Assembly: GCA_003252455.1 (NCBI GenBank)
Contig: QKED01000049.1
Span: forward strand, 1 to 49,949
Length of the DNA stretch: 49,949 bases
Reading direction: 5' to 3'
Origin: Gammaproteobacteria bacterium
GTDB taxonomy: Bacteria > Pseudomonadota > Gammaproteobacteria > Thiohalomonadales > Thiohalomonadaceae
The number at the start of each line of letters is the position of its first letter. Positions within the stretch are counted from its first letter, which is position 1. Positions 32,934 to 49,949 of this stretch are shown in pieces. The position numbers and the translations under genes were made by a program. The notes under the pieces were generated by a model. That model had not been told where the DNA came from. It searched no databases and saw only the letters and a program-made list of their open reading frames with translations.

Positions 32934-33009
32934 TGGAGCGGGAAACGAGATTCGAACTCGCGACCCCAACCTTGGCAAGGTTGTGCTCTACCAACTGAGC
33001 TATTCCCGC
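32934..33009 (-). tRNA. tRNA-Gly(GCC)
   Basis: 76 bases including an encoded CCA (32934-32936). On the minus strand the acceptor arms GCGGGAA and TTCCCGC pair, the D-arm has TAGCTCAGTTGGTAGAGC, the anticodon loop reads CTTGCCAAG (anticodon GCC), and the T-arm has GTTCGAATC. Confidence 0.97.
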
Positions 33010-33368
33010 TGATTCGCGCACAGCTGATAATTGAAATCTTCTTCAATTACAACTTGTTACGCTTGTTGTGAAGAGGCATCGCCTCAGCACGGGGCGCATA
33101 ATGCCCGAGCGAGGCCGGGTCGTCAACCCTTCACGAGAAAGAAATCGAATTTACCGCCCCACAGGGCGAACCCAGCAGGGCGTAGGGGCACACCCGACCT
33201 TCTACTCAGGTGGCCCATCGTGCTGATTATCTGGACGAGGGCGTTCAATACGAAACGACATCTAGTCCGTTTGTTCTATGTCTCCAAATTTGCTCAAAAT
33301 GCTATGTTTAGAGGGACCTCTAGAGCACCTTTCTGTGGCTCTAATCGTTTAATACAAGGATGCTCCTC
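33010..33368. other. intergenic region between tRNA-Gly and the PEP-CTERM gene
   Basis: 359 bases, more AT-rich than its surroundings, especially 33220-33368. It contains a TTGTAA-17-TATCAG candidate promoter for the tRNA on the minus strand and an inverted repeat ATTGAA/TTCAAT near 33032-33049. No clear sigma-54 site was found before the PEP-CTERM gene. No gene is seen. Confidence 0.45.
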
Positions 33369-34052
33369 ATGTCTATGACTCGACCGCTTTCGCGCCTCTT
33401 CCTACCCCTTGTCTGCCTCCTCGCTAGCCCCGCACTCTATGCCGCCACACTCACCACCGTGAGTAATCTCAACCAGACGTCCGGCGGCTCCGCGCCCTTG
33501 AGCGCCAACAGCTACAATCTGCTCGGTAGCGCGTTTACCGTCGGCAGCGCCGACCTTGAACTGCTGAGTGCACGGGTGAGCTTCACCTTAGCCAACCCGG
33601 GCTTGTCGGCGAATGTGCAGTTTTTCCTCTATGACAACAATGTCGACCGTCCCGGCTCGCTCTTGACCACCTTCACCGGACCTACCGACCCTGGCAATGG
33701 GGTGGTCACCTACGGCCTCGCCACCAGCTATCTGCTGACACAAGGCTCCACCTACTGGCTGATGGGGCTCAACACCGGAACCACCCTCGGACCCTCTTGG
33801 TATTTCACCAACTCCGATAGTGAGGACGCGAGTGGTGTGGCCGGTTGGACCATCTCCTCGACCGCGGCAGAGAGTACCAACTCGGGTTCTACCTACACCC
33901 TCTACCCCGGTCCGCAGATGTTCTCCATCCAGGTCTATCGTATCCCCGAGCCCTCGGTCGCCTTCGCCTCGTTGCTCGGCTTCGTCGCCTTCGGTGGGGT
34001 GGCACGTCGCCGCCACCTCCAGCACAAGGTCACCAAGCATCCTGCCGTGTGA
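33369..34052 (+). CDS. PEP-CTERM sorting-domain protein (choice-of-anchor R-like)
   Basis: 227 residues from ATG 33369; an AAGG about 10 bases upstream fits it, and nearby ATGs at 33360 and 33375 are also possible. Signal peptide about 1-26 (RLFLPLVCLLASPALYAA). The mature part is a Ser/Thr/Gly-rich beta domain (LLGSAFTVGSADLELLSARVSF..., FFLYDNNVDRPGSLL) resembling choice-of-anchor R domains. The C-terminus is a textbook PEP-CTERM signal: IPEPS, a hydrophobic helix FASLLGFVAFGGVA, then RRR. Exosortases recognise such signals and process exported proteins destined for the surface or matrix. An exosortase gene lies at 46331, 12 kb away. Composition is close to the chromosome, not to the exosortase cluster. 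Confidence 0.9.
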   Translation: MSMTRPLSRLFLPLVCLLASPALYAATLTTVSNLNQTSGGSAPLSANSYNLLGSAFTVGSADLELLSARVSFTLANPGLSANVQFFLYDNNVDRPGSLLTTFTGPTDPGNGVVTYGLATSYLLTQGSTYWLMGLNTGTTLGPSWYFTNSDSEDASGVAGWTISSTAAESTNSGSTYTLYPGPQMFSIQVYRIPEPSVAFASLLGFVAFGGVARRRHLQHKVTKHPAV

Positions 34053-46246: not shown

Positions 46247-46330
46247 CGGTGCTTCCTACATCAGGGGCGTGGTAAAATCGTGATTTGGGTCTTCTATATG
46301 TACCCTACTGACTCTCATTAGGAGTGTTGA

Positions 46331-47257
46331 ATGCTTGTTTCGGGTCTTACCAAAGAGCGCGCCTTTGTCGCCATCGGTCTCGTCTTTACACTATTGTATC
46401 TGTTGCTGGTCTATGCTAGAGGCAGTGCGAGTGGCGTTGGTATGGGCGGGCTTTTCATCGCAGCAGCCGGGATGCTCTACTTTGAAAAGGCTAAGGAGAT
46501 GGAGTCACTCCCTGTTACGAGCATCTTCTCCCGAGGTATTGCGGTATTGATTCTGGTTGGCGTGATCAGCGTTGGTGTGAGCTTTCTTGGGTACGAAGAC
46601 CTGAACTATGTTGGCCACCCGGAACGCATACTGCCGTTCTTCACGCTTGTGGCACTGACCTTGATGTTCTATGGGCGGATCGCTTTTGAGAAGCTCACAG
46701 CAGAGTACAGTATTTTACTCGGACTTGGGCTTCCACCAATCATCCTCAACCTGCTTGCCGAACCCATCGCTGTGTTGACGGCCAATACGGGGGGTATGTT
46801 CCTTTGGTATTTCGGCTTTGAGGCGAACGTGGTTGGGAGAGTCGTCTACATCCCAGGTGGAGCGGTACAGGTGACGAATGAGTGCTCCGGTTATCTTCTC
46901 GACGCGTGGCTCATAGGTTTGGCCATTGCCGCCCAGCAAGTGGTGCCGCTGAAGAATCGTGCATTTTTAGTTCTGTTGCCCTTGGTCGGCCTTCTTATCG
47001 GTGTGTTTACAAATACAATTCGAATCTCCATCTTGGCTGTTCTCACGCGCCTGCAGGATGAAGAGCGGTTTGAATACTGGCATTCTCATGATGGTTCACA
47101 GATCTTTGGCTTGTTTGGTATCGGTCTGTTTATGCTCTTATACTGGCTACTGCTCAAAAGACAGGACAAACAAGAGAGAGAAATGAAAGAGCGACAGGCG
47201 TCCTCTGCCGCCGCCATCCTTGCTAGACAGAATCCTAATTTCACAGAGCATGAATAA
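46331..47257 (+). CDS. exosortase-family transpeptidase-like membrane protein
   Basis: 308 residues, AGGAG 6 bases upstream, about eight membrane helices. The exosortase triad is visible: Cys185 in VTNECSGYLL, Arg231 in TNTIRISILAVL, and His251/His253 in YWHSHDGSQIFGLFGIGLF. Exosortases act on PEP-CTERM-type C-terminal signals. The ECSG context and the neighbours below are closer to cyanobacterial-type exosortases than to the EpsH/XrtA group, but the subtype is uncertain. No EpsI domain or EPS gene is attached. GC content is about 50%, far below the preceding genes. It overlaps the next gene by 8 bases. Confidence 0.85.
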   Translation: MLVSGLTKERAFVAIGLVFTLLYLLLVYARGSASGVGMGGLFIAAAGMLYFEKAKEMESLPVTSIFSRGIAVLILVGVISVGVSFLGYEDLNYVGHPERILPFFTLVALTLMFYGRIAFEKLTAEYSILLGLGLPPIILNLLAEPIAVLTANTGGMFLWYFGFEANVVGRVVYIPGGAVQVTNECSGYLLDAWLIGLAIAAQQVVPLKNRAFLVLLPLVGLLIGVFTNTIRISILAVLTRLQDEERFEYWHSHDGSQIFGLFGIGLFMLLYWLLLKRQDKQEREMKERQASSAAAILARQNPNFTEHE

Positions 47258-48506
47258 AATAGCTCACCGTTGGCGGATTTTAACTTTGCTGTGGGGGATA
47301 ACCTCCGTACTTCTTGCTCCATCTGTATTCGCTCAATCACTACCCACGGTACTCTTACCTAAGGCTCGCTTGGCTGTTGATGAGTTCGCCATTATCGTCA
47401 ATACGGCCGATCCCCAGAGTCAACGTGTTGCGGCCTATTACGCCGGCAAGAGAGGAATCCCGAAAGAGAACATTATCGAAGTTGACTTGGGGCCACCTAC
47501 TGCGGTGATACACAAGCGACAGTTTGAAACAGCATACTCCAAGGTCAAGGACGCAACGCCGTCCAGAATTCAGGCCTATGTCCTTGCCTTTGACCACCCG
47601 TATCGGGTCGATTGTATGTCCATTACATCGGCCTTTGCTTTCGGCTATGATCGTACCCTTTGCGCCACGGGATGTACCCTCAGTAAAGAGAATGGCTACT
47701 TCAATCAGACAGGGGGTGCGCCGTATAGTCGCTTTGGCTTTCGCCCCACGATGGCCCTCGCGGGACTAAATGAGAGCGAGGTACTAAAGCTGATTGACCG
47801 CTCTGTCCTGGCTGACGGGCATGGGGCGAGAGGCACTGCCTACTTGGTGAGTACGCCTGATAAAACGCGCAACGTTCGCGCCTCTATCTATCCTGAGGTG
47901 GAGAAGCTTGTCGCAGGAGATATCACTACAGAGGTGGTTGAAGGCTATCAAATAGCAGACCGTGATGATGTCATGTTCTATTTTACGGGTACAGCAGTGG
48001 TTCGCAAGCTTGATACCAATCGTCTGTTGCCGGGGTCTGTTGCTGATACCCTGACGTCGAAATCCGGTGTGCTCGATCACAGTTCACACACGATGGTTAC
48101 TGAGTTTCTCGCTGCAGGCGCCTCCGCGAGCTACGGAGCAGTTGTAGAACCATGCAATTTTCCACATAAATTCTCAAACCCACTCATTCTCATGGGCGTA
48201 TATCTCCGAGGTGCGACCTTGATGGAGGCCTATTGGAAGAGTGTGGCGATGCCAGGGCAGGGGATCTTCACCGGTGACCCGCTTACCGCACCCTATGACT
48301 ATACGAAAGTCACACGCAGTGGAGATGACATTTTGGTGCGTGCACCGAGTCTTATCCAGGGGCGCTATCGCATCCTCGGTTCAGAGTCGCTTGTCGGCCC
48401 CTTCAAGGTCGTCGAGACTGTACATCTGACTCGACGTGAGGGTGGGGAGGGCTATCTACTATTTAAAGACGCTGGTTACAGCGTTTATCAGGTCTCGCCG
48501 CTTTAA
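47250..48506 (+). CDS. TIGR03790-family protein
   Basis: 418 residues from ATG 47250, overlapping the exosortase stop codon. Signal peptide about 1-28 (LLWGITSVLLAPSVFAQ). Family marks in order: DEFAIIVNTADPQSQRVAAYYAGKRGIPKENIIEVDL, YVLAFDHPYRV, LVSTPD, ASYGAVVEPCNFPHKF, MEAYWKSVAMPGQGIFTGDPLTAPY. As I know it, this family has a sporadic distribution confined largely to species with an exosortase, and has no known function. The coupling to the exosortase gene here fits that. Four cysteines (DCMS, LCATGC) in the exported part could form disulfides. Low GC like its neighbours. Confidence 0.88.
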   Translation: MNKIAHRWRILTLLWGITSVLLAPSVFAQSLPTVLLPKARLAVDEFAIIVNTADPQSQRVAAYYAGKRGIPKENIIEVDLGPPTAVIHKRQFETAYSKVKDATPSRIQAYVLAFDHPYRVDCMSITSAFAFGYDRTLCATGCTLSKENGYFNQTGGAPYSRFGFRPTMALAGLNESEVLKLIDRSVLADGHGARGTAYLVSTPDKTRNVRASIYPEVEKLVAGDITTEVVEGYQIADRDDVMFYFTGTAVVRKLDTNRLLPGSVADTLTSKSGVLDHSSHTMVTEFLAAGASASYGAVVEPCNFPHKFSNPLILMGVYLRGATLMEAYWKSVAMPGQGIFTGDPLTAPYDYTKVTRSGDDILVRAPSLIQGRYRILGSESLVGPFKVVETVHLTRREGGEGYLLFKDAGYSVYQVSPL

Positions 48507-48548
48507 TTGCGGGTTCAGAATTATTAGTACTTAAAGGATGTAACCGCC

Positions 48549-49340
48549 GTGGAAGAAGTTGATGTCAAGAGCCCCGTCTATCTTACACAAAAAGATCGGC
48601 AGCAGATCGTTGACGAGATGCTCCGTCTCAACAGTTCTCGGGAAAAGATCGATTCTATGCTGGCAGGCGTTAAGTCTGTGCGCCTATTGGGTTACATCCT
48701 GATCGTGCTCTTCTTCATGGATATTGCATACGTCGTATACCCTACTGACTTCTTTAACCCGACCTGGGAGATGCGTAAGATGTCCGAAGTACTGGAGAGG
48801 CTTCCAGTCCCCTTCATCGGTCTTGTGCTTATCTTCTGGGGGGGGCTATTTCAACGGGAGATGCGGGATACCTTTCTCCTCTGGATGACCTCATGGTTCT
48901 GCTTCTGGATTGGGGTAATCATGTTTCTTGGTATCCCTTTAGCCGCGCTCAATACATTCCGTGTGATAGATACCTATCAGTTGGAAATGGATGCACGCCT
49001 GCAACAACAGACAGACAATGCCAATGAATTGATTACCGCACTTCGTCTCTGCACCAATAATGCGCAGGTATCTACCGTGATGTCGCGCTTTAGTGGGAAA
49101 GATATTAGGTACGGAAATGACATGACCACTGATCAGTTACGTGACAAGCTTCTTGAATCGATAGACAGACAGCAGGAGTCGTTAATAGAGAAGATCCATG
49201 AAGGCATGGATGAGCAAGTGACGGCACTTTGGAAGCGTCTGATTCGTAATGTCTTTACTCTGATCCTTGCAGGTGTGTTTTTGCTTGTTGTCTGGGGAAG
49301 TTCTAAGTGGGCACGTGACGAATGGCTTCACAATCGATGA
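48549..49340 (+). CDS. membrane protein resembling cyanobacterial HpsJ
   Basis: 263 residues from GTG 48549, AAAGGA about 10 bases upstream. N-terminal cytoplasmic helix, then membrane segments at about 44-63, 86-100 and 110-131, a long coiled-coil region (139-230) and a final membrane helix (about 232-252). LLGYILIVLFFMDIAYVVYPTDFFNPTWEM, then VLERLPVPFIGLVLIFWGG, then GIPLAALNTFRVID with QLEMDARLQQQ resemble HpsJ proteins of cyanobacterial hormogonium-polysaccharide loci, which are associated with cyanoexosortases. The call is from memory of the pattern. Its stop codon overlaps the ApbE start (ATGA), so the cluster is co-translated. Confidence 0.6.
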   Translation: MEEVDVKSPVYLTQKDRQQIVDEMLRLNSSREKIDSMLAGVKSVRLLGYILIVLFFMDIAYVVYPTDFFNPTWEMRKMSEVLERLPVPFIGLVLIFWGGLFQREMRDTFLLWMTSWFCFWIGVIMFLGIPLAALNTFRVIDTYQLEMDARLQQQTDNANELITALRLCTNNAQVSTVMSRFSGKDIRYGNDMTTDQLRDKLLESIDRQQESLIEKIHEGMDEQVTALWKRLIRNVFTLILAGVFLLVVWGSSKWARDEWLHNR

Positions 49341-49949
49341 GCGCTCAGTTTCGGATTGTAGCACTGCTTCTTCTACTGCCTCTGTTTGCACTTACAGGCT
49401 GCAGCGGTGAACAGCGATATACGCAACGTCTTTATGTGTTTGGGACACTTGTTGACATTACTGTCTACTCGAAATCTGAGCGTGAGGCGACTACAGCGAT
49501 AAATAAAATAGCCCGCGACTTTCAGGTAATGCATCATGACTGGCATGCCTGGGAAGAGGGCCCGTTGATGGTGATAAACCGCGCCCTTTCTAAGGGTGAA
49601 CCCGTTTCTGTCATCCCTTCATTGCGCCCAGTAATAAAACAGTCAATTCGCCTATCTGAGGCCACCGGTGGGTTGTTCAATCCAGCCATCGGTCGGTTGC
49701 TGAATCTTTGGGGATTTCAAAGTAGTACTTTTGAGCCTGGGCCTATGCCCGCAAACGAGGCGATCCGAGCACTGGTAGAACAGCATCCATCTATGAGCGA
49801 CCTGACCCTCACTGACGATGGCGTACTTACATCTACTAACAGTAGTGTTCAACTTGACTTTGGTGGTATCGCTAAGGGTTATGCAGTTGATTTAGCGATC
49901 GAGCAACTCCGTGCAGCAGGTATCACAGATGCGATGGTGAATGCAGGGG
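49337..49949 (+). CDS. apbE: FAD:protein FMN transferase (ApbE), lipoprotein, 3' end outside window
   Basis: The first 204 residues are present; the frame is open at the window edge. ATG 49337 overlaps the preceding stop codon; an in-frame ATG at 49322 is an alternative. Lipoprotein signal with lipobox LTGC (Cys22 from the preferred start). Family motifs: LYVFGTLVDITVYS, ATGGLFNPAIGRLLNLWGF and LDFGGIAKGYAVDLAI. ApbE attaches FMN covalently to Ser/Thr of periplasm-facing domains (NqrB/C, RnfG/D, FMN-bind proteins). No such target is in the window. It shares the low GC and tight spacing of the exosortase cluster. Confidence 0.92.
   Translation, partial: MSAQFRIVALLLLLPLFALTGCSGEQRYTQRLYVFGTLVDITVYSKSEREATTAINKIARDFQVMHHDWHAWEEGPLMVINRALSKGEPVSVIPSLRPVIKQSIRLSEATGGLFNPAIGRLLNLWGFQSSTFEPGPMPANEAIRALVEQHPSMSDLTLTDDGVLTSTNSSVQLDFGGIAKGYAVDLAIEQLRAAGITDAMVNAG

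Follow-up and report, generated by a model that had tools for sequence, protein, structure and literature searches.

A diverged cyanoexosortase-A-like enzyme in a probable PEP-CTERM sorting locus of a gammaproteobacterium

The anchoring of surface proteins by exosortases, and the part played in it by their partner proteins, are to our knowledge still mostly unproven. Haft et al. (2006, PMC1569441) propose the cysteine, arginine and histidine of these enzymes as sortase-like residues, and a study of Nostoc (PMC12188702) connects cyanoexosortase B with PEP-CTERM proteins, with scytonemin and with motility and the formation of biofilms. In type IX secretion, PorU, a protein of the gingipain family, has been implicated as the sortase that removes the C-terminal signal and conjugates the end so exposed (PMC7468200). 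Here we describe a window of 49,949 nucleotides, which is the entire contig QKED01000049.1 (henceforth C3) of a gammaproteobacterial genome of 4.58 Mb (assembly GCA_003252455.1, 118 contigs, given as 99.7% complete). Its right end is closed by four genes on the same strand, coding for an exosortase, a TIGR03790 family protein, an HpsJ-like protein (HpsJ-A) and ApbE. We regard them as probably the core locus of a PEP-CTERM/exosortase sorting system, built around a diverged enzyme of cyanoexosortase A type with HpsJ-A in a genome that is not cyanobacterial and in which no second exosortase was found. The features of the window referred to below are the following.

46331..47257 (+): exosortase, cyanoexosortase-A-like, 308 amino acids (PF09721 and TIGR03763 profiles; Cys185, Arg231 and His251 conserved)
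47250..48506 (+): TIGR03790 family protein, 418 amino acids counted from the ATG (TIGR03790 profile; AlphaFold2 model)
48549..49340 (+): HpsJ-like protein A (cyanoexosortase A-associated), 263 amino acids, GTG start (NF050013 profile)
49337..49949 (+): ApbE (FAD:protein FMN transferase) lipoprotein, cut at the contig end (PF02424 profile; other possible start at 49322)
33360..34052 (+): PEP-CTERM protein (choice-of-anchor R), probable substrate (translation; NF041539)
46247..46330 (+): stretch between pbpC and the exosortase gene in which GC falls; presumed place of the promoter

Membership of the first protein in the exosortase family is clear from PF09721 (86.9 bits, cut-off 25.7) and TIGR04178 (44.6 bits, cut-off 23), and its best profile is TIGR03763, cyanoexosortase A, with 128.5 bits. 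Cys185, Arg231 and His251 fall in columns conserved in 83/83, 83/83 and 82/82 of the aligned exosortases, that of the window included (every second cyanobacterial row was aligned, and the degraded sequence L030 was left out). Both the TIGR03763 profile and a search with the protein itself returned this enzyme as the sole exosortase of the genome. In the phylum sample, TIGR03763 is matched at E <= 0.001 by 69 of 398 genomes (that of the window among them), and the best other genome reaches 58.5 bits; 36 of the 40 genomes reached through TIGR03790 loci (from 40 of the 80 loci compared below, one cyanobacterium and one Desulfobulbaceae among them) also match, with 59.2 bits at best. Among 292 genomes of the cyanobacterial phylum there are 87 matches, 35 of them above the cut-off. 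When 144 relatives, again with its own genome, were searched with the exosortase protein, six matched and the best foreign score was 28.7 bits; as many class genomes with PEP-CTERM matches gave none, ordinary exosortases evidently escape this search, which speaks only for the absence of close ones. Plasmid sequences contained no match to the exosortase or to HpsJ (tblastn), and the single match of the exosortase among PDB sequences (E 0.87) was taken as chance. Plain XrtA identity was rejected on its profile score of 37.6 bits, for a cut-off of 208.

In a careful tree with 43 rows, drawn from 22 of the 39 cyanobacterial exosortases and 20 of the 63 others (L224 and L030 were left out), the 20 rows of the Pseudomonadota side separate from the cyanobacterial rows together with the window's enzyme (100/100), and the latter falls beside two cyanobacterial rows (98/91). 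Its end branch is long (2.23), and the closest cyanobacterial exosortase of the tree is 30% identical to it. The sequence L030, from a genome of the same family (G369) that has one PEP-CTERM match, resembles an exosortase weakly, over a short frame interrupted by one TGA, and may be a decayed one.

The HpsJ-like protein points in the same direction. It scores 166.5 bits with NF050013 (HpsJ_like_A; cut-off 140) and displays several hydrophobic stretches by eye. HpsJ-A occurs above the cut-off four times in this genome and in none of the 368 other genomes of the class sample, eight of which gave weak matches of 25.8 bits at most. The four paralogues form one clade against 23 cyanobacterial HpsJ (100/100; L232 was dropped from 24 cyanobacterial rows) and share 30–36% identity, which makes the expansion either old or fast. 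One of them lies directly behind a PEP-CTERM gene on contig C19, a position suggesting that partnership with HpsJ may be substrate-specific. Of 40 cyanobacterial regions examined, 24 have an HpsJ homologue along with the CrtA-type exosortase, in one case (L232) as fragments only. Eight of these regions were read gene by gene: three have exosortase, a TIGR04153-like gene and HpsJ (L223, L241, L244), two have HpsJ directly after the exosortase (L251, L253), two have it before the exosortase (L260, L226), in one of them fused with TIGR04153, and one has it on the opposite strand (L240). By profile, both TIGR04153 and HpsJ-A were confirmed in L241, the former also in L226 and the latter also in L251. 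A contig scan with one narrow pattern derived from the HpsJ profile gave 15 stretches, none confirmed; it missed the cyanobacterial HpsJ as well and is uninformative on absence.

The genome also contains proteins on which such an enzyme could act. The cut-off of the PEP-CTERM profile TIGR02595 is exceeded at 13 places, on eight contigs other than C3. Eleven of the 13 tails were read. In all of them PEP is followed by a hydrophobic stretch and then by a basic tail; the ten proteins whose N-terminus was in view all begin with a signal-like stretch (by eye). The open reading frame (ORF) was unresolved for L038 and L039 during this reading, the latter matching later at the protein level, where 12 of the 13 places were tested and ten match TIGR02595, L041 and L042 giving no match at the limits used. 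Within the window, the protein at 33360–34052 has a signal-like N-terminus, RIPEPS, a hydrophobic stretch and ARRR near the C-terminus, and matches choice-of-anchor R (NF041539, 63.6 bits, cut-off 30); no PEP-CTERM profile, TIGR02595 included, matched it, so that its assignment as a substrate comes from the sequence read directly. Judged by these tails, about 14 candidate substrates are scattered over the genome, one of them inside the window. TIGR02595 cannot tell the cyanobacterial tail subclass apart, as a PEP-CTERM protein from a cyanobacterial region matches it too. PEP-CTERM matches were found in three of 19 other genomes of the family (at one, two and four places), one of the 19 also giving a weak exosortase match whose frame contains a stop, and in 47/144 genomes of the class sample, its own included. 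With such matches widespread in the class, what sets this genome apart is its enzyme and not the mere presence of substrates.

Other sorting signals were seen in passing. A protein of 468 amino acids on contig C111 (L023:18421-19827, minus strand) has a Gly-rich stretch, a hydrophobic segment and a basic tail, by eye like GlyGly-CTERM or MYXO-CTERM, together with weak matches to sorting-dependent M36 peptidase families. At a cyanobacterial CrtA-type locus, a PFE-CTERM protein (L260:5557-6465, minus strand; NF050011, 44.9 bits, cut-off 24) is the neighbour of the locus, and PFE-CTERM may for that reason be a CrtA substrate type.

The genes of the cluster are tightly packed, as described in a first-pass annotation made from the letters of the window, with which the overlaps and the gap agree: the exosortase and TIGR03790 genes overlap by 8 bases (47250–47257), a gap of 42 bases (48507–48548) precedes HpsJ, and HpsJ and ApbE share ATGA (49337–49340). 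The first apbE start listed by the ORF tool is 49322, and the ATGA overlap belongs to the start at 49337. That annotation had left the right end unseen, and we recovered it. The last 52 bases of C3 are identical to the first 52 of contig C31, into which apbE reads on in frame and without a stop, to 350 amino acids counted from 49322. After a further 118 bases follows a gene for 245 amino acids whose product resembles VpsP weakly (36.1 bits for a cut-off of 125) and, 12 bases beyond it, a gene for 209 amino acids with a signal-like N-terminus, to which no family was matched in profile searches. A terminator-like hairpin with a T run lies 3' of this last gene (C31:2035-2051). With apbE completed on C31 and these two genes standing before the hairpin, the likely unit comprises six genes: exosortase, TIGR03790, HpsJ-A, ApbE, the VpsP-like protein and the 209-amino-acid secreted protein. 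Counts of the terminator scan are near chance (four found in the window for 3.8 expected, four in C31 for 2.6), as are those of the promoter scan (three for 3.4 and five for 3.4, respectively), which reported no sigma-70-like site at 46247–46330.

Beyond the hairpin, on the opposite strand, are a VanZ-family gene, a pgm-like gene and an aspartic-protease gene, and then come a small phosphatase gene and rne (pgm, rne and the small phosphatase were named by eye, and pbpC by eye or from the first-pass annotation, without a family search). The VanZ-family gene (L019:2662-3720, minus strand) is convergent to the operon and has, like it, a low GC content at third codon positions (GC3, 0.52). The only Rfam match was a tRNA; this tRNA-Gly (32934–33009) adjoins a local GC dip that holds the PEP-CTERM gene at 33360–34052.

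The four-gene order had been called non-standard, and a neighbourhood search bears this out. A contig scan for TIGR03790 confirmed at least 566 stretches, the best 80 of which served as comparison loci (the flanks of some are much shorter than 10 kb). The order is absent from all of these 80, as it is from 40 cyanobacterial exosortase regions. The latter were picked by hand (20 with lower and 20 with higher scores; two places of one genome recur, and L239 gave no exosortase match). Searched by phmmer with the exosortase, HpsJ and ApbE of the window, the flanks of the best 80 gave nothing at E <= 1e-3; as a control, the window's ApbE finds the other ApbE of its own genome at 2.4e-20. With a broad exosortase profile, two of the 80 loci matched, L119 (Thiocapsa) with a full exosortase about 6 kb away and L111 in part. 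The cyanobacterial regions, for their part, gave no match to TIGR03790 or ApbE. Thus TIGR03790 is associated with exosortases at the level of the genome and not in gene order. A literature search, weak evidence because most subscription papers lay outside it, found nothing on exosortases with HpsJ or PEP-CTERM with caspase-like proteins and no mention of 'TIGR03790'. The locus is a compact exosortase operon, probably of six genes, that combines a core of cyanobacterial type with a partner of predicted gingipain fold.

How it would work can be sketched as follows. The exosortase, with Cys185, Arg231 and His251 at the outer face of the inner membrane, would cut its substrates near PEP and pass the cut protein to an acceptor, probably one linked to polysaccharide. 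HpsJ-A would be a membrane-anchored partner, perhaps with one paralogue per group of substrates, and the exported TIGR03790 protein, with its gingipain-like fold, would hold or handle the C-termini, probably without peptidase activity. Cleavage, the roles of the partners and all the steps after cleavage are what we infer from the genes and residues observed. One diverged exosortase, HpsJ and TIGR03790 in a single operon, with about 14 predicted substrates, make up a small and testable sorting system.

Several points weigh against this interpretation. The 128.5 bits of the exosortase lie below the curated TIGR03763 cut-off of 150, and a search of the genome for TIGR04153, the usual partner of CrtA, gave no match at E <= 1. 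A quick tree of 70 rows, reported here because the careful search for it was unfinished, leaves the enzyme unresolved at the base of the cyanobacterial side, next to another long branch, and an approximately unbiased (AU) test with the enzyme placed outside the cyanobacterial clade gave p 0.128, so that this placement is not rejected. The single-exosortase result comes from two queries, which an exosortase of a remote type could escape. Finally, the four genes stand together at no other locus examined, and the coupling of TIGR03790 and ApbE with an exosortase comes from one genome. Given the long branch, the 30% identity, the quick tree and the AU test, the enzyme is, as far as its sequence tells, best called cyanoexosortase-A-like and not CrtA.

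The second gene gives the locus a further feature. Its product scores 208.8 bits with TIGR03790 (cut-off 67), starts with a signal-like stretch and belongs to a family whose description ties it to exosortase genomes. In the phylum sample, the four genomes (of 398) above the TIGR03790 cut-off all match the exosortase profile, versus 69/398 overall, and so does one of the two genomes with weaker TIGR03790 matches. The PDB offered no sequence match, either to the single protein or, at E <= 10, to a profile of 49 sequences. The AlphaFold2 model of the window's protein has a mean pLDDT (predicted local distance difference test score) of 90.3, and that of the single domain of a relative (L148) 93.8. 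Residues from about 41 to 350 are predicted to adopt a gingipain-like (clan CD) fold and residues 352–418 a small beta domain. In VIA-align comparisons the window's protein matches the gingipain RgpB with Z 18.7 over 270–273 residues and the relative does so with Z 19.0 over 265 of 305 residues. Each structure listing has 34 entries at Z >= 8, which are gingipains, separases and proteins of TPR-CHAT/Csx29 type (we take Csx29 to be a TPR-CHAT protein) and two titled only 'bacterial protein complex'; for both models gingipains come first, followed by separases and CHAT proteins, and PorU is among these entries for the window's protein only. With Foldseek, the relative matches a gingipain at E 1e-4 and the window's model has no match at E 0.001 or below. 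Weak matches of the tail (352–418) to Ig/fibronectin-like domains (Z 4–5) recall the gingipain layout and are no proof of it.

Conserved residues bear on whether the fold is that of a working peptidase. An alignment of 49 sequences, the window's among them, has four invariant cysteines (122, 138, 142 and 302); the sole near-invariant histidine, at position 267 (48/49), is a threonine in the window's protein. Clan CD folds have a characteristic strand order, from which the places of the catalytic dyad can be located, and by this strand count, the only means used, neither place appears to hold the expected Cys or His residue. We would accordingly expect, on the predicted model, TIGR03790 proteins to be non-catalytic or altered, the window's copy more so; its branch in a quick tree is 1.69. 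The parallel with PorU, the implicated sortase of type IX secretion, is worth testing. One tentative extension, which we hold to be rather improbable, is that TIGR03790 proteins are exported pseudo-peptidases of gingipain fold that work with exosortases, as PorU does in type IX secretion, and that the gene here shares bases with the gene of a diverged exosortase of cyanobacterial type, the founder of a subfamily of its own. If that were true, two unrelated bacterial C-terminal sorting systems would share the clan CD fold, and this genome would show the link physically. In any case the predicted fold offers a first structural hypothesis for TIGR03790, a family of no known function, and connects it with the sortase of type IX secretion through a common fold. 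Among plasmids, TIGR03790 has two matches (tblastn), both in Rhizobium records at 34–35%: on the plasmid of Rhizobium sp. WL3 (L075) the gene is surrounded by exopolysaccharide genes and the annotation shows no exosortase within 10 kb, and the other record is without annotation.

Base composition raises the question of where the locus came from. GC per kb ranges from 0.57 to 0.70 over the first 46 kb and from 0.624 to 0.662 across 40–46 kb, and then drops to 0.538, 0.503 and 0.508, so that the fall noted in the first-pass annotation after pbpC is real, from about 63% to 50%. Codon usage is odd as well. GC3 of the six operon genes and vanZ (0.448–0.557) is lower than in any of the 89 reference ORFs taken from this genome, whose values start at 0.578 and average 0.797, and the codon distance of these genes is at or above the 98th percentile of the 56 reference ORFs under 450 amino acids. 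The reference ORFs are the longest non-overlapping ones of at least 250 amino acids in eight stretches, some perhaps spurious, and exclude the stretch beside the operon and low-GC patches on contigs C111 and C60. These two patches (GC 0.43–0.51) lie at about 2000–5000 of L023 (C111) and 17000–20000 of L024 (C60).

One explanation of this composition, a serious contender though we rate it somewhat below even, is that the locus is an old resident of a low-GC stretch of the chromosome and that its composition reflects the region, with its pgm-like, VpsP-like and VanZ neighbours, and not an origin elsewhere. GC3 indeed falls and rises by steps, from pbpC (0.668) through the operon (about 0.5) to pgm (0.618), the protease (0.645), the small phosphatase (0.630) and rne (0.728). 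The deep paralogy of HpsJ agrees with long residence, and so do the 11 substrates read, host-like with GC3 of 0.653–0.838. What speaks against it is that the sampled genomes of family, class and phylum contain no such exosortase and no HpsJ-A above the cut-off.

This last fact would be expected if four to six genes had arrived together and recently, from a cyanobacterium or another donor, and not yet acquired the composition of the host. The GC3 values below every reference ORF, the lack of any exosortase match above 28.7 bits in 143 relatives, the cyanobacterial type of both exosortase and HpsJ and the place of the enzyme among cyanobacterial rows in the careful tree would all fit such an island. 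We nevertheless consider a recent arrival of the whole system unlikely, because the exosortase and TIGR03790 branches are long and because paralogues and substrates have host-like codon usage. Identity to the best cyanobacterial exosortase of the tree is 30%; the four HpsJ paralogues make one deep clade, and the other three have GC3 of 0.725, 0.811 and 0.897; and TIGR03790 and ApbE gave no match in the 40 cyanobacterial regions. With exosortase and HpsJ of cyanobacterial type and the nearest TIGR03790 proteins (among the best 80 of at least 566) mostly from Pseudomonadota, the cluster looks, from sequence comparisons, like a mosaic. The proposal of one acquired module for surface sorting thus holds for a tightly coupled sorting unit, with its exosortase and candidate substrates, and is not supported for its ready-made arrival.

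A different addition to the sorting system, that the unit also flavinylates, with ApbE transferring FMN (flavin mononucleotide) to an operon protein or to exosortase substrates, seems to us quite doubtful. ApbE functions in general as an FAD:protein FMN transferase (FAD, flavin adenine dinucleotide), and the gene itself is real: the window part scores 119.5 bits with PF02424 (cut-off 25.6) and the rest 140.9 bits (G000:C31:4-375), the frame is intact across the join of C3 and C31, and the translation has a lipobox-like LTGC (by eye). A complete ApbE lipoprotein is therefore encoded in the unit while the genome has a second ApbE on C60. Family profile searches matched no flavin-acceptor family among the operon proteins, though, and ApbE had no match beside TIGR03790 in the best 80 of at least 566 loci or in the 40 cyanobacterial regions, so that the flavin transfer to surface proteins suggested in the first-pass annotation stays a guess. 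An artefact of assembly or binning, by which cyanobacterial-type DNA was misjoined to the end of a proteobacterial contig, is suggested by the position and composition of the cluster and made very improbable by the 52-base overlap that leads in frame through apbE into C31 with its ordinary chromosomal genes (rne and others by eye), by the three further HpsJ-A paralogues and 13 PEP-CTERM places on other contigs and by a contamination given as 0.07%.

Set beside the described systems, the locus as a PEP-CTERM sorting unit resembles each in part. With the XrtA-type PEP-CTERM/EpsH system of Proteobacteria (PMC1569441) it shares PEP-CTERM substrates, one exosortase and the Cys/Arg/His residues; unlike that system, it has an enzyme with 37.6 bits for XrtA (cut-off 208), and no large exopolysaccharide cluster was recognised by eye in the window or in the first 20 kb of C31, where no dedicated search was made. 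With the gingipains and PorU (C25) of Bacteroidota, TIGR03790 has in common, by prediction, a domain with the fold of the catalytic type and, after it, a small beta domain, and PorU is a proposed sortase of C-terminal signals (PMC7468200); in contrast to them, it has no PDB sequence match and no recognised conserved Cys-His dyad, and is tied to exosortase genomes. The third is the cyanoexosortase A system (TIGR03763 CrtA, TIGR04153 and NF050013). It differs in that the enzyme here is below the CrtA cut-off, TIGR04153 was not found and the host is not a cyanobacterium, and in that TIGR03790 stands between exosortase and HpsJ, with ApbE, the VpsP-like and the 209-amino-acid secreted proteins following. 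It is alike in that CrtA is nearest to this exosortase, that HpsJ-A, above its cut-off, lies close by on the same strand, and that the genome encodes PEP-CTERM proteins.

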